A DNA stretch of 7,610 bases from Bacteroidales bacterium (GTDB lineage Bacteria > Bacteroidota > Bacteroidia > Bacteroidales > GCA-2748055), in assembly GCA_023135025.1 (NCBI GenBank), contig JAGLTY010000092.1:1-7610 (forward strand), written 5' to 3'. Numbering within the stretch: position 1 is the first letter of the stretch; each line of letters starts with the position of its first letter. The translations under genes were made by a program, and so were the position numbers. Shown here piece by piece: positions 2,472 to 7,417 of this stretch. The notes under the pieces are model-generated. The model did not search any database and had not been told where the DNA came from. It saw only the letters and a list, made by a program, of their open reading frames with translations.

Positions 2472-4817
2472 CTATTCTTCCTCCTCCGTCTCCTGCTGGT
2501 TGACCGGGTCGGCATCCAGGACAAACATGCCGCGGCCATGGGTGGCAACGATGATCATATTTTCGCGTGGCTGAATGGCCAGGTCGTGTATATAGGTGCA
2601 TGGAAGGTCGCCCAGTACCTCCCAGCTCTCCCCGGCATCTTTTGAGACATAGACACCCACATCGGTGCCCAGGTAGAGAATATTCTCCTTTTCAGGGTCC
2701 TCCCTGATCACATTGACCGGTCCGGCAGGAACATTGGCCGAAATATCTTCCCAGGTGGCTCCAAAGTCGGTGGAGCGCCATATATAAACGGCGGCATCAT
2801 CATCCCTGCGTCCGGTCTGGGTGACATACACGGTACCGAAATCGTGTTTCGAGGCCACGATCCTGGAGATCCACCTTACCGGTAGTGGTTCTTTGCGGAT
2901 ATCCTCCCATTTTTTCCCACCATTCCTGGTTCTCCAAAGCCTCCCGTCGTCGGTGCCGGCATAAAGCAGATCCGGGTTGAAGACAGATTCTTCCAGCGCA
3001 CTGATGGTCTGGTAGCTGATATCGCCCTTCTTCTCAGGATCGTTGTAGGTGAGGTCGGGACTGATCTGCTCCCAGGTTCCTCCCCTGTCGGTTGACTTCA
3101 GAACATGCTGAACCCCGTGATAGACAATATCCGGATTGTGGTCGGACAGCAGGGTGGGGGCCATCCACTGTCCCCTGAATTCAGGCTCTTCCGGGAAGAT
3201 GGTGGGCAATACCCACTCCATATCGTCGGGATACCCTTCCACGGTGGCTTTGGCAAGCTTTCCATAGAAGAGGGAGGCGTAGATGGAGTTGTTGTCACGT
3301 GGGTCCACCACATGGGTGCTCCCTTCGGCTCCCAGGGTGAGTTCCCACTCGGTGGGTCTTACCTTGTCTCTGCCCCGTGAAAGGTCTACTTCGCTGTAGA
3401 AGCTGTGGTGGTCCTGGATGGAGCCAAATACCCTGAAGGGTACATTGTTATCAAACGCCACATTGTAAAACTGTGCCAGTGGAAGCTCCTTCAGCAGGTT
3501 CCGCCAGTTTTCACCCTTGTCGTAGGAGATACTGACACCTCCATCATGGGCCGCCAGGATGTAGTTGGAGTTGTCCGGATCGATCCACATGCCATGCTGA
3601 TCGGCATGGATCTTACGCCTGATGGGTTCAAAGGTGGCCCCTCCATCGGTTGAGATATTGATCCAGAGACCGAGGGTGTAGACCCGGTCCTCATCGTTGG
3701 GATCTACACGCATCTGACCGAATACCCATCCGTAGGTGCCTGAGTGCCCCGACATATATTTCTTTGTTTTTTCGGTGAGACCACTTACCTGCTTCCAGCT
3801 CTCCCCGGCATCGTCCGAACGGTAGAGGGTGGCTCCTTTAATCACATCTTCCCTGGGACGGCCATAGGAGTCCAGCTCTCCCTCTTCCGCTTTGAAAGCG
3901 ATTTCATAATCATCCACAAAAGCATAGACCACATCGGGATTGGAGCGTGACACATCGATACCGGTGCGCCCCAAGAATTTTGATGAAGGCAACCCATTGG
4001 TCAGCTGCTTCCAGTTTTTTCCACCGTTAGTAGATTTCCAAACCCCGTTGTTCTTATGGTTTTCGCAGGTACGTGGATCGTTCCACTTCAGCCGGGTGCG
4101 CTGCCATGTGGTGGCATAAAGGATCTCCGGATCGCGGGGATCCATCACCAGGTCGTTGACTCCGCTTTCAGCTCCTTTGTAGAGTATCTTTTCCCAGTTC
4201 TCTCCTCCATCGGTGGTTTTATAGAGGCCCCGCTCTTTGTTCTTTGTCCACTCATGACCCGAAGCGGCCACATAGACGATATCCGGATTATCCGGGTGGA
4301 CCAGGATACGAGCAATGGTAAAGCTCTCTTCCAGGCCCATATGGGTCCAGGTCTCACCTCCATCGGTGGTTTTCCATACACCGCATCCGGGGTTTGACGA
4401 TCGGAAAATATTGGCCTCACCGGTTCCCACCCAAACGATTTCGGGGTTGGAGGGGGCAATGGCCAGGTCGCCGATGGTGGAGGTGCCCTGGTGCTCAAAT
4501 ACCGGTTCGAAAGTGACCCCTTCATTCACACTTTTCCAGACTCCGCTTGAGGCTGTTGCTACCCAGATGGTGTAGTTTTGCCCCTTAGGCCCCAAGGCCT
4601 CCACATCGGTACAACGGCCGCTGATATTGGTGGGTCCGATAAACTGCCAGTGCAGCTCCTTGAAAGTGGAGCTGTCGCGCATCTCTTCATGGGCCTGGTA
4701 CATGACCAGCTTTTCTTTGCCGGTTAGTATGGCGGTTTTAACCTGCGCGGAGAGTAACATTCCGTTGAGAATCATACTGGTGATGAGCAGGCACTGGATC
4801 GGGATTTTCGGTTTCAT
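2472..4817 (-). CDS. Secreted Asp-box (BNR/sortilin-type) beta-propeller protein
   Basis: A 781-residue exported protein. The N-terminus is a Sec signal peptide with a hydrophobic run (about 8-22) and a likely cut after LLSA (24). The rest is built of propeller blades marked by Asp-box motifs (S/T-x-D/N-x-G-x-x-W/F). I count eleven, starting near residues 96, 150, 201, 262, 334, 389, 431, 575, 630, 682 and 725. Most are preceded by blade strands of the type 'NPDIVYVAA' or 'DPEILYATT'. The opening FIGPTNISGRCTDV (59-72) and closing IVATHGRGMFVLD (756-768) are typical of the large BNR proteins often labelled glycosyl hydrolase or VPS10/sortilin-like in Bacteroidota. No glycosidase catalytic motif was recognised, so that label should not be read as enzyme function. 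Many relatives carry a further C-terminal domain; this one ends soon after the last blade with an acidic tail (ETEEEE) and no type IX sorting domain. Its gene diverges from the two-component operon. Confidence 0.9.
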   Translation of the reverse strand: MKPKIPIQCLLITSMILNGMLLSAQVKTAILTGKEKLVMYQAHEEMRDSSTFKELHWQFIGPTNISGRCTDVEALGPKGQNYTIWVATASSGVWKSVNEGVTFEPVFEHQGTSTIGDLAIAPSNPEIVWVGTGEANIFRSSNPGCGVWKTTDGGETWTHMGLEESFTIARILVHPDNPDIVYVAASGHEWTKNKERGLYKTTDGGENWEKILYKGAESGVNDLVMDPRDPEILYATTWQRTRLKWNDPRTCENHKNNGVWKSTNGGKNWKQLTNGLPSSKFLGRTGIDVSRSNPDVVYAFVDDYEIAFKAEEGELDSYGRPREDVIKGATLYRSDDAGESWKQVSGLTEKTKKYMSGHSGTYGWVFGQMRVDPNDEDRVYTLGLWINISTDGGATFEPIRRKIHADQHGMWIDPDNSNYILAAHDGGVSISYDKGENWRNLLKELPLAQFYNVAFDNNVPFRVFGSIQDHHSFYSEVDLSRGRDKVRPTEWELTLGAEGSTHVVDPRDNNSIYASLFYGKLAKATVEGYPDDMEWVLPTIFPEEPEFRGQWMAPTLLSDHNPDIVYHGVQHVLKSTDRGGTWEQISPDLTYNDPEKKGDISYQTISALEESVFNPDLLYAGTDDGRLWRTRNGGKKWEDIRKEPLPVRWISRIVASKHDFGTVYVTQTGRRDDDAAVYIWRSTDFGATWEDISANVPAGPVNVIREDPEKENILYLGTDVGVYVSKDAGESWEVLGDLPCTYIHDLAIQPRENMIIVATHGRGMFVLDADPVNQQETEEEE

Positions 4818-4862: not shown

Positions 4863-4870
4863 TTATTTTG
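4863..4870 (+). promoter_or_regulatory. Candidate -7 box for the two-component operon
   Basis: TTATTTTG matches the Bacteroidota -7 consensus TAnnTTTG at seven of eight positions and lies 16 bp before the ATG at 4887. No convincing -33 TTTG is visible at 19-21 bp upstream. The same nine bases, TTATTTTGC, recur at 6957-6965 before the four-helix membrane protein gene. The whole divergent intergenic region is only 69 bp, so promoters for both directions must lie close together or overlap. Confidence 0.3.
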
Positions 4871-4886
4871 CCTTAAATCCGTTTGT

Positions 4887-5573
4887 ATGCAAATTCTTAT
4901 TGTTGAGGACGAGGCTTCTTTAATGGAGTCCATGGTGTCATACCTGGAGCTGGAGGGATTCAGATGCGAGCAGGCTTCAGATTACCATACGGCTGTTTGT
5001 GTGCTGGACAAACACGACTATATCTGCATGCTGATCGATTTGAACCTGCCCGGCGGGGATGGCATGAAGCTGGTAAAGCTTGCCAGGGAGAATCAATCGG
5101 AATCGGGGATCATTATTATATCTGCAAGAAATACCATTGAACAGAGGGTGGAAGGACTCGATGCCGGGGCTGATGATTATCTGGTTAAACCGTTCCACCT
5201 GTCTGAGCTGGTGGCCAGGGTTTATTCCGTGGCTCGCCGAACCCGCATGAAGGGTGGAGAGGTGCTTAGTTTCGGGGTGATCAGTATCTTACCGGAGGAG
5301 CACACCTGTTTTGTCGGTCAGCAGCAGGTTGACCTGACCCGGAAAGAACTGGATATGCTAATGTTCCTGATGGCCAATCGCAACCGTGTGGTAACCAAGG
5401 AGAGCATAGCCGACTATCTTTGGGGAGAGTATGGTGGAGGTTACGGATCGTACGACTTCATCTATACCCACCTGAAAAACCTGAGACGAAAACTTCAGGA
5501 TGCTGGCAGTCCCGATTATGTACAGAATATTTATGGCATAGGATATAAATTCTCTCTCGATAAGAGCCTATGA
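4887..5573 (+). CDS. OmpR/PhoB-family DNA-binding response regulator
   Basis: A 228-residue cytoplasmic transcription regulator. The receiver domain (1 to about 118) has the acidic pocket E7-D8, phospho-acceptor Asp51 in LIDLNLPGGDG, the switch Ser79 in IIIISAR and the conserved Lys101-Pro102. The C-terminal winged helix (about 128-226) shows LTRKELDMLMFLM, the recognition-helix region ending HLKNLRRKL, and the wing NIYGIGYKF, as in OmpR/PhoB proteins. I chose the ATG at 4887 because it begins exactly at the family start (MQILIVEDE). The frame stays open upstream to a TTG at 4860, but that would add nine residues with no family support and would run through the promoter-like box. The stop codon overlaps the kinase start (ATGA), which indicates translational coupling and identifies the kinase as its partner. 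The target genes are unknown; direct repeats just downstream of the operon are a candidate site. Confidence 0.96.
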   Translation: MQILIVEDEASLMESMVSYLELEGFRCEQASDYHTAVCVLDKHDYICMLIDLNLPGGDGMKLVKLARENQSESGIIIISARNTIEQRVEGLDAGADDYLVKPFHLSELVARVYSVARRTRMKGGEVLSFGVISILPEEHTCFVGQQQVDLTRKELDMLMFLMANRNRVVTKESIADYLWGEYGGGYGSYDFIYTHLKNLRRKLQDAGSPDYVQNIYGIGYKFSLDKSL

Positions 5574-6835
5574 AACTGCTAACCAAATCGACACTCTTAA
5601 TCGCAACCCTCTCCCTGTTCCTCTTCTTTATCATGGGGGTCATCTTCTTCCAGGTGCTGAAAAGCATAAGTATATCCGACCTGAACCGGGAGCTTTGCGA
5701 TTTGAAGGAGGTTGTGGAGGATTACCTGGAGATCTATGAGGGTGCTCAAATCGAAGCACTTACGGGGATCGATTCTCTGTCGGTAGAACCTGTGGGACGG
5801 ACCGTACACACCGGGGAAGTTTTTGGGGACACCCTGATGCAGACTATGAAAGATGACCAGTTCAGAACCTACCGTTACATTCAGTTTATAACTGAGAAAG
5901 GGGAGAGGTCCTACCTGGTAAAAATCTACAAATCCACTACTCCAGCAGATAAATTGGTGGAACGGGTGACGTTGATGATGACTCTTATGGTGATCCTGTT
6001 TCTGGCAGGGATATTTATTCTTAACAGGTTTATTTTTGCCAATTTGTGGGGAGATTTTTTTGAAGCCATTGAGAAACTGAAACAATTCGAAACCAGCAAG
6101 AAACCTGTGATACTTGGAGAACAGGATATCCAGGAATTCGATGAGTTTAAGCAGGTTATTGAAGTGATGACCCGGCGCCTGGCCGAAGACTACAGAGAGC
6201 TAAAAGAGTATACCGATCATACCACCCATGAATTGCAAACACCCCTGGCGGTGATTAAGTCTAAAACAGAGTTGCTGATTCAGTCGGAAAACCTGGGCGC
6301 GGAAGAGATGAAATGTCTGCAGGCGATCAACACCAGTGTTCACCAGTTATCCAGGCTCAACTCTACATTAACCCTGATTACTCGTATCGAAAACCGGCAA
6401 TTCACCGAAAAAGAGGAGATTAGCCTGACCGGACTTCTGGAACGGCACCTGGATTTATTACAGGAACACATCGGGCTGAGAAAGATCAATGTCGAAAAGC
6501 AATACCGGGATGAGGGTAAGGTGCTATTCATGGATCAGGGACTGGCCGATCTGTTGATTGCCAATCTACTGAAAAATGCCATTATACATAACATTGAGGG
6601 AGGAACCATTGTGCTTGAAACCAGACCTGAGAGCCTGGTTATTCGAAATGACGGGCCTCCCCTGGGATTTAGCCAGGAGGAGCTGTTTACACGTTTTGTC
6701 AGGGACGCCCGGAGAACTGGTAATTTTGGTCTGGGATTATCACTGGTGAAGAAAGTGTGCGAAAACTATGGATTTAAAATAGAATATTCTTTTGATAAAC
6801 AGCAACATACGTTTACAGTGACCCTCCCGGATTAA
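5570..6835 (+). CDS. Membrane sensor histidine kinase, partner of the upstream regulator
   Basis: A 421-residue inner-membrane sensor kinase. Transmembrane helix 1 (about 8-30) and helix 2 (about 132-157) flank a periplasmic sensor segment of roughly 100 residues with no recognised ligand-binding fold. A linker (158-210) follows that may be a degenerate HAMP. The dimerisation/phospho-acceptor helix carries the H box TDHTTHELQTPLAVIKSK with His220; Gln replaces the Arg more often seen in HELRTP. The ATP-binding domain shows an N box (NLLKNAIIHN, Asn336), a G1 box (RNDGPP, Asp361), an F box (ELFTRFVRD, 371-379) and a G2 box (GNFGLGLSL, 384-392). All catalytic motifs are intact, so it should autophosphorylate. 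The signal sensed cannot be read from the sequence. It overlaps the regulator gene by four bases and ends within the first direct repeat of the downstream intergenic region. Confidence 0.95.
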   Translation: MKLLTKSTLLIATLSLFLFFIMGVIFFQVLKSISISDLNRELCDLKEVVEDYLEIYEGAQIEALTGIDSLSVEPVGRTVHTGEVFGDTLMQTMKDDQFRTYRYIQFITEKGERSYLVKIYKSTTPADKLVERVTLMMTLMVILFLAGIFILNRFIFANLWGDFFEAIEKLKQFETSKKPVILGEQDIQEFDEFKQVIEVMTRRLAEDYRELKEYTDHTTHELQTPLAVIKSKTELLIQSENLGAEEMKCLQAINTSVHQLSRLNSTLTLITRIENRQFTEKEEISLTGLLERHLDLLQEHIGLRKINVEKQYRDEGKVLFMDQGLADLLIANLLKNAIIHNIEGGTIVLETRPESLVIRNDGPPLGFSQEELFTRFVRDARRTGNFGLGLSLVKKVCENYGFKIEYSFDKQQHTFTVTLPD

Positions 6836-6855
6836 TATCTTCAGAATATCTTCAG
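6834..6855 (+). promoter_or_regulatory. Tandem 11-bp direct repeat, candidate response-regulator operator
   Basis: AATATCTTCAG occurs twice head to tail (6834-6844 and 6845-6855), and a partial third copy, AATTCTG, follows. The right end also forms the palindrome CAGAATTCTG (6853-6862). OmpR/PhoB-family regulators typically bind as head-to-tail dimers on direct repeats with an 11-bp period, and the regulator in this window belongs to that family. The repeat ends 10 bp before a perfect TAnnTTTG box, covering the place where a -33 element would lie. That is the arrangement expected for an activator site. The binding itself is inference. Confidence 0.5.
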
Positions 6856-6865
6856 AATTCTGCTT

Positions 6866-6873
6866 TACATTTG
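6866..6873 (+). promoter_or_regulatory. Bacteroidota-type -7 promoter box after the kinase gene
   Basis: TACATTTG is an exact match to the TAnnTTTG -7 element of the Bacteroidota primary sigma factor. At the expected -33 distance (about 19-21 bp upstream) there is only TTCAG from the direct repeats, not TTTG, so the promoter would probably need an activator. Transcription would begin near 6877-6881. Confidence 0.5.
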
Positions 6874-6877
6874 ATCT

Positions 6878-6958
6878 GTAACGTTATCCTTCAAAAGATA
6901 ACAACATAGCTAAATGGATTAAAGAACCATCTGGAGCAAAATTCAGGTGGTTTTTTTT
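6878..6958 (+). ncRNA. Candidate small RNA or attenuated leader
   Basis: The stretch between the TACATTTG promoter box and the T-tract terminator would give a transcript of about 75-80 nt. It holds a 5' hairpin GTTATC/GATAAC (6883-6888 with 6897-6902, 8-nt loop), an A-rich single-stranded middle, and the terminator hairpin. No open reading frame of useful size exists: the only ATG (6914) is followed by one codon and a stop. It could be a free small RNA controlled by the two-component system, or the terminated leader of the four-helix membrane protein gene starting at 6974. The 5' end is an estimate from the promoter box. No known RNA family was recognised. Confidence 0.4.
6921..6958 (+). terminator. 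Intrinsic terminator
   Basis: ACCATCTG (6926-6933) pairs with CAGGTGGT (6944-6951) over eight bases, including one U·G pair, around a 10-nt loop. Eight T (6951-6958) follow directly, and the preceding AAA (6921-6923) can pair with part of that tract. The wobble pair and the T tract both point to plus-strand use. It would end the response regulator/kinase mRNA and any transcript started at the 6866 box, and it lies only 15 bp before the next start codon. Confidence 0.85.
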
Positions 6959-6964
6959 ATTTTG
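6957..6964 (+). promoter_or_regulatory. Candidate -7 box for the four-helix membrane protein gene
   Basis: TTATTTTG matches TAnnTTTG at seven of eight positions, overlaps the last two bases of the terminator T tract, and lies 9 bp before the ATG at 6974. If used, it would give an almost leaderless mRNA independent of the terminator. No -33 element is clear. The same nine-base string appears before the response regulator gene. Confidence 0.3.
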
Positions 6965-6973
6965 CAACCTGTT

Positions 6974-7417
6974 ATGATCTATTCATTTGCTTTTAAGATC
7001 CATATCATCATCAGCACCATAACGCTCCTGGCCGGGATTGTAACTATTGGATTGTCCATTCAGGGGCTGATCAGGAAACGGGACTATGGCAGGGGAGATT
7101 TTGGAGTATCACTGATCTTCAACGTGGCGCTCTATTTCCAGCTGATCCTGGGATTCTTGATCTATTACCTTCTTCGATCTGCCCTGGAAGAGCCTTTATG
7201 GGAGGTGCCTGACACCCAGAATGATGCTTCTCTAAGGTTCTGGGCCATAGAACACATAGCACTGATGATCTTCGCCCTTTTCCTGACGCAGTTGGGCAGG
7301 GTCTTTATTAAGAAATCAAGAGGTCCGTTCAGGAAGTTCAGAGCCTCTATTTTCTATTTTGGAACTTCCCTGTTACTGATCCTGTTCTCGGTAGGAATGG
7401 CACTGTTTTTCAGGTAG
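6974..7417 (+). CDS. Four-helix membrane protein, resembles small Bacteroidota 'cytochrome B' family
   Basis: A 147-residue integral membrane protein with four predicted helices (about 5-33, 43-68, 88-112, 122-145) and basic loops. The pattern of a His in helix 1 (His10), a QLILGFLIYYLL-type helix 2, LRFWAIEHIALM opening helix 3 (His94), a GR exit from helix 3, and a short C-terminal helix ending in FR recalls a small family that Bacteroidota genomes often label 'cytochrome B'. That likeness is from memory of the family and heme binding is unproven. A His often seen in helix 2 of such proteins appears as Leu/Tyr here. The ATG at 6974 is preferred: a GTG at 6947 in the same frame lies inside the terminator stem and adds nine unconvincing residues. 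The gene is convergent with the isomerase-like gene, 18 bp away. Confidence 0.8.
   Translation: MIYSFAFKIHIIISTITLLAGIVTIGLSIQGLIRKRDYGRGDFGVSLIFNVALYFQLILGFLIYYLLRSALEEPLWEVPDTQNDASLRFWAIEHIALMIFALFLTQLGRVFIKKSRGPFRKFRASIFYFGTSLLLILFSVGMALFFR

Follow-up and report, generated by a model that had tools for sequence, protein, structure and literature searches.

Directly behind an OmpR-type two-component operon, the 7,610-nt stretch of Bacteroidales DNA analysed here (the window) carries an exact 11-bp direct repeat that is probably the operator of the adjacent OmpR-type regulator, and that would activate a promoter for a terminated RNA of about 80 nt with some read-through. The reading of the repeat as an operator is well supported by genome comparison. 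In the mechanism that we propose, the PorY-family kinase would phosphorylate the adjacent OmpR-type response regulator, which would then occupy two half-sites (CTTCAG-5 bp-CTTCAG) that cover the -33 region and switch on transcription from the promoter at 6866-6873; the RNA of about 80 nt would end at a terminator at 6921-6958, and some transcription would continue past it into a membrane-protein gene at 6974. We infer binding, activation and the transcription start from sequence and its conservation, and likewise that the short RNA is a separate product and more than a leader.

The repeat, its promoter and the two-component operon

The regulator gene (4887..5573, + strand) encodes 228 aa with the Pfam domains Response_reg (PF00072) and Trans_reg_C (PF00486) only, and a recognition helix SYDFIYTHLKNLRRKL; its top-scoring solved structures were response regulator D (1kgs) and BasR. 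The gene ends 1.26 kb upstream of the repeat, which agrees with the OmpR-type regulator that an earlier note on this DNA had placed there. The sensor histidine kinase gene (5570..6835, + strand; 421 aa) belongs to the PorY family (NCBIfam NF052314, 377 bits, cut-off 350) and its stop codon TAA occupies 6833-6835, so that the repeat overlaps the kinase gene by 2 bases. A 781-aa protein with sortilin/BNR repeats is encoded at 2472-4817 on the - strand, divergent from the regulator gene.

The repeat unit AATATCTTCAG is present as two exact head-to-tail copies (6834-6844 and 6845-6855), as had been claimed, and the identity at period 11 spans 14 bases, which sets the repeat tract at 6834..6858 (+ strand). 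When the window was shuffled 300 times with dinucleotides preserved, no shuffle gave a 14-base run at period 11 or at any period of 8-14. The predicted operator core is the 19-mer TCTTCAGAATnTCTTCAGA (6838-6856), with the half-sites CTTCAG-5 bp-CTTCAG arranged head to tail. The -7 box TACATTTG (6866..6873, + strand) begins 9 nt past the core; it is an exact TAnnTTTG box and its promoter has no TTTG at -33, both of which the earlier note had reported correctly. The box by itself is weak evidence, as five occur in the window against 3.4 expected. In the available text of PMC9723704 a TAnnTTTG-type box lies at -12 to -5 in a flavobacterium, which would place the start near 6878 and the core 19-mer at -40 to -22.

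The likely promoter box of the regulator operon, TATTTTGC (4864..4871, + strand), has no CTTCAG repeat and is kept in relatives, staying TAnnTTGY in the seven close loci; TAnnTTGY is the SM5 alternative-sigma box in the available text of PMC9723704. The copies of TATTTTGC at 4864-4871 and 6958-6965 both fit this pattern, the second one lying across the T run of the terminator before the membrane-protein gene. Within 200 nt upstream of the regulator gene, on either strand, the best score for the repeat was only 9-11 of 18 positions in all 12 loci checked, which gives no support to autoregulation at the window locus, a role that the earlier note had entertained.

Loose matches were common in the window's own genome (154 with 3 mismatches or fewer, where a reversed control gave 20), so that only near-exact sites are meaningful. 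At up to 2 mismatches there were 13 places; the genome scan that the earlier note had proposed thus recovered the window's site, the only one that is intergenic with a box, and yielded no further site of that kind.

The predicted short RNA and the membrane-protein gene in the genus

Our genus sample comprised 18 genomes, 12 of which had a kinase match of at least 53% identity. The whole intergenic block was retained in seven genus loci, the window among them, in the order site, box, stem GTTATC-8-GATAAC, ACATAGCTAAAT, terminator and the same membrane gene. Across these seven loci, 17 of the 19 core columns of the site were invariant in comparison to 2 of 9 in the adjoining spacer, and invariance was likewise seen in 4 of 8 columns of the box, 11 of 12 of the RNA stem (1 of 8 in its loop), 14 of 15 of the unpaired stretch, 1 of 8 of the terminator loop and 3 of 15 at 6959-6973. 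This alignment leaves out six loci: the more diverged L029, L030 and L031 have a slightly altered site, a TACTTTTA box and another terminator, with CATAGC(T/G)AA right after the box and the first stem absent, and the RNA part is missing from L028, L032 and L033, with no site found between kinase and membrane gene in L028. The conservation that the earlier note had proposed to check was thus found in seven genus loci and failed in genome G007, where the two-component system and the membrane gene are kept, no site was found between them, and the site is present elsewhere, at an HmuY gene. In G011 the kinase gene and the element are separated by an AsnA gene (PF03590) that is convergent to the kinase (L027/L052); all parts of the element persist behind it, which indicates that the element is a unit of its own.

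A near-exact site outside known genes was present in all 12 genomes with a kinase of at least 53% identity, two of these sites (L065, L067) overlapping antisense frames of 115 and 98 aa, and in 11 of the 12 a box matching at least 5 of 6 positions accompanied it. The genus genomes lacking such a kinase had no site outside genes (0/6), with the reservations that these six genomes are 65-88% complete, that G012 has a kinase of only 35% identity and that the kinase of G014 is cut by a contig end. At L170 (G017) neither kinase nor site is present and the beginning of the regulator gene is fused to the last part of the membrane gene; this arrangement is a deletion remnant or a misassembly.

The predicted RNA would run from about 6878 to about 6958 and consists of the stem GTTATC-8 nt-GATAAC (6883..6902, + strand), a conserved and mostly unpaired stretch AACATAGCTAAATGG (6903..6917, + strand) and an intrinsic terminator with a long stem and T8 (6921..6958, + strand). 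Outside the stems, no part is better conserved than the unpaired stretch, and CATAGCTAA had a mean unpaired probability of 0.67-0.83 in the seven sequences. The fold (-22.8 kcal/mol, z -4.68) is due mostly to the terminator; a 20-pair structure containing both stems was 99.3% paired in the seven sequences, in which no two-sided pair changes occurred, so that covariation adds no support to it. A search of Rfam 15 gave no match at the gathering score in the window (best sub-threshold match His_leader, 26.9 of 49 bits). A model of the RNA (R1) had eight matches in 295 order genomes, two of them in genus members and the other six marginal and lacking ATAGCTAA, so that no homologue beyond the genus was found.

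No conserved antisense target of the unpaired stretch was found when its complement, TTTAGCTATGT, was sought in seven genomes: seven of the 13 places were the element itself and the other six, in four genomes, share no gene. One of the occurrences of TTTAGCTATGT lies in an HmuY gene on the sense strand (L237 of G011, position 1501), about 0.86 kb inside the gene and far from its start codon, and is a single case.

The gene that follows (6974..7417, + strand) encodes an uncharacterised 147-aa membrane protein with four helices (structure model, pLDDT 88.7). It had 334 homologues at E <= 0.001, with no name beyond hypothetical among the 120 listed, and His10 and His94 were invariant across 14 aligned sequences. 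A fold search gave nothing beyond weak resemblance to cytochrome c oxidase subunit III and to helical bundles. The protein may possibly bind heme.

We give slightly less than an even chance to the interpretation that stem and terminator form solely a cis-acting leader (attenuator) of this membrane gene, with no function as a free RNA. In the window only 15 nt separate the terminator from the ATG, and the same gene follows in all 10 genus loci that have the element; moreover, genomes G021 and G022 of another genus have a degenerate repeat before a homologous gene with no terminator between them (judged by eye), which suggests that the membrane gene may be the original target. Against a leader, the 5' arm of the terminator formed only weak alternative pairs when the 3' arm was left out, giving no strong antiterminator, and in three of the seven loci a TAnnTTGY box overlaps the terminator T run, such that the membrane gene may have its own promoter. 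A further argument comes from L253, an order locus in which site and box follow directly after a kinase gene and a strong terminator lies 44 nt past the promoter: the next large gene is convergent, so the only visible sense product is a short RNA, albeit that the terminator could serve the convergent gene too. The predicted L253 RNA is unrelated in sequence to that of the window and would represent the same architecture in a second family. L253 therefore speaks for a free RNA, and G021/G022 for the membrane gene as the target that came first. The activator site proposed by the earlier note was upheld by comparison and its autoregulation was not, while the core 19-mer, the predicted short RNA with its terminator and the membrane-protein gene behind it had been overlooked. 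A further step, to a heme-linked two-component system that has a new small regulatory RNA as its most immediate output, with the invariant ACATAGCTAAAT as effector stretch and an architecture that recurs in L253, is tentative and on present comparisons rather unlikely.

Recurrence of the site across Bacteroidota

The exact pattern TCTTCAGAATNTCTTCAGA was found at 74 loci in a collection of 84,980 species, 50 of which were counted as Bacteroidota from record titles (L112 included), the other 24 including L087. A TAnnTTTG box matching at least 5 of 6 positions lay 9 nt past the 19-mer, the same core-to-box offset as in the window, in 19 of the 50 Bacteroidota loci compared with none of the 24 others, and at any other offset from -60 to +119 in at most five loci. 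After four own-genus loci of the 74 were dropped, the box stood at offset 9 in 14 of the 32 Bacteroidota loci that lie outside frames of at least 150 aa, in 1 of the 14 inside such large frames and in 0 of 24 others. A regulator or kinase homologue (E 1e-10) was encoded in 12, none and two of these loci, respectively. Six of the 32 had a kinase directly upstream on the same strand, four of these being mutually related Chryseobacterium-type loci.

Within the order, the 19-mer at up to 1 mismatch occurred in 18 of 393 genomes (control pattern, 1). Eleven of the 17 sites other than that of the window were inside genes, none of them with a box, and four of the six intergenic sites had one (L240, L244, L245 and L253). 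The L240 site precedes hemA and the L244 site (G010) the membrane gene. In L245 the site lies 24 nt before a response regulator-histidine kinase operon whose regulator is 50% identical to that of the window, with helix HDFIYTHLKNLRKKL, and both regulators have the helix core FIYTHLKNLR. Two pairs of loci are the same DNA (L112 and L240; L122 and L076), which reduces the hemA cases from four to two genomes; the order sample and the collection scan therefore cannot count as independent evidence.

Starting from the kinase, a search with NF052314 over 118 phylum genomes yielded 30 PorY-family loci, the window's own included, which were scanned with the 18-position pattern CTTCAGAATNNCTTCAGAAT over the stretch that begins 20 nt ahead of the kinase stop and reaches 600 nt past it. 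A sense-strand match of at least 15/18 was found in 7 of the 30 (antisense 0/30; reversed pattern 0 and 0) and one of at least 14/18 in 11 of the 30 in comparison to 1, 0 and 0 in the controls, leaving 23 and 19 loci, respectively, below these thresholds; the sites of L184, L196 and L199 reach only 14/18. A motif-free test over 24 of the 30 loci (own locus L201 and five below the cut-off dropped) found five loci in which a 9-mer recurs at period 11 with 8 or more positions matching, compared with 0-2 loci at other periods from 6 to 23 and a shuffled mean of 0.56. The arrangement of a site behind the kinase recurs, though most PorY-family loci have no recognisable site. Regulators with a KNLKKKL helix (L184, L185, L196) adjoin repeats such as TCTTCTAAAT and those with KNLRKKL/GNLRKKI helices (L187, L190, L194, L200, L202) adjoin CTTCAG/CTTTAG-type repeats, so helix and site possibly covary across these few cases.

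It is improbable that the site belongs to another OmpR-type regulator of the genome. Bacteroidota have many such regulators and 20 of the 32 site loci have no regulator or kinase nearby, but the site adjoins PorY-type kinases across distant genomes, co-occurs with the kinase in the genus (12/12 versus 0/6) and in L245 has an autoregulatory arrangement with a regulator of the same helix core. Quite improbable, too, is repression of the promoter by the bound regulator, as the promoter lacks a TTTG at -33 and the site spacing is one that we take to match class-II activator sites of the OmpR/PhoB family. What repression has in its favour is that the site overlaps the polymerase position and that HaeR of Porphyromonas acts both ways (PMC3764172, available text). 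That the repeat is a slippage by-product, with a terminator that merely ends the two-component operon, is hardly credible: slippage does yield short tandem duplications and a terminator is expected after an operon, but the repeat is kept in seven loci beside a fast-drifting spacer, has the same spacing to the -7 box in other Bacteroidota and persists behind the inserted gene in G011; a chance or slippage origin is contradicted by this conservation and the shuffles. Conservation, the 9-nt spacing, kinase linkage and L245 all point to the reading that the earlier note had suggested, in which the adjacent system activates the promoter from a site at the -33 region. The element has the features of an OmpR/PhoB-family activator site, namely direct half-sites 10-11 bp apart, a fixed promoter spacing and a linked regulator.

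Genes behind the sites, known systems and the possible signal

In the genus and its family, sites precede HmuY-domain proteins that carry a type IX sorting tail (G007, G008 and G015), an HmuY protein without a type IX sorting tail match in G011 (degenerate site, 15/18), a TonB plug protein in G009 and glutamyl-tRNA reductase hemA in G022; hemA is also the gene behind the site of L240, which belongs to another genus. No match to PF14064 was found in the genome of the window itself, which is 81% complete. Elsewhere in Bacteroidota, site neighbours included four sulfatase-fold membrane proteins (two behind sites of only 14/18), two PAP2 proteins, two TonB/outer-membrane barrels and one cytochrome b561. 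The Pfam check of target genes covered 10, 5 and 5 proteins picked by eye, L102 being without a match among the 10. In Pedobacter (L106) a cytochrome b561-type gene (PF01292) lies behind the site. L193 has a protein with a similar start behind the kinase (judged by eye) and no recognisable site. The HmuY, TonB plug, hemA, cytochrome b561, PAP2 and sulfatase-fold genes behind site promoters suggest a heme or envelope signal.

HaeSR (PG0719/PG0720) of Porphyromonas gingivalis is a two-component system tied to hemin, and in gel shifts HaeR binds hmuY, hmuS, ragA and its own promoter (PMC3764172, available text). PG0720 also activates a 550-nt non-coding antisense RNA, asSuGR, at the capsule locus (PMC8757827, available part). 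The words 'direct repeat' and 'consensus' are absent from the available text of PMC3764172, and in the accessible portions of PMC3764172 and PMC8757827 the hmuY promoter is unenriched in ChIP-seq. The likeness extends to the hmuY/TonB-type genes behind sites in the window's relatives. The window kinase passes the PorY family cut-off, whereas the partner encoded with it in one operon is an OmpR-type regulator and PorX is not known to be of that type. The PorX/PorY system of P. gingivalis responds to hemin, and its postulated PorX site, CG(A/C)AAAAA-N5-T(T/A)TCTTTGC, differs from the repeat (PMC8265659, available text). As both HaeSR and PorXY are reported as hemin-responsive in the available texts of PMC3764172 and PMC8265659, heme is a reasonable guess at the signal of the window's system, and a guess by analogy.

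The PmrA/BasR box has a half-site CTTAAG, 5 bp and a second half-site, head to tail (PMC3973317, available text), which resembles CTTCAG-5 bp-CTTCAG in the window, and in other Bacteroidota some of the sites lie next to sulfatase-fold and PAP2 genes. In contrast, the window regulator scored 148.5 bits against the NCBIfam PmrA equivalog cut-off of 330, and phylum and promoter type are different. Short terminated RNAs switched on by a response regulator include OmrA/OmrB, MgrR and the csRNAs; the window RNA differs in having no Rfam match and in lying directly behind its own two-component operon, before a membrane gene.

OmpR-type operators and response-regulator-driven short transcripts are already known as kinds. 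To our knowledge few OmpR-type operators are known in Bacteroidota, and searches of an open library showed no report of the present motif in this phylum. The repeat described here offers a recognition sequence, at a set distance from its promoter, with which many genomes can be scanned; it links that sequence to a PorY-like kinase group and points to a short RNA output that has not been described.
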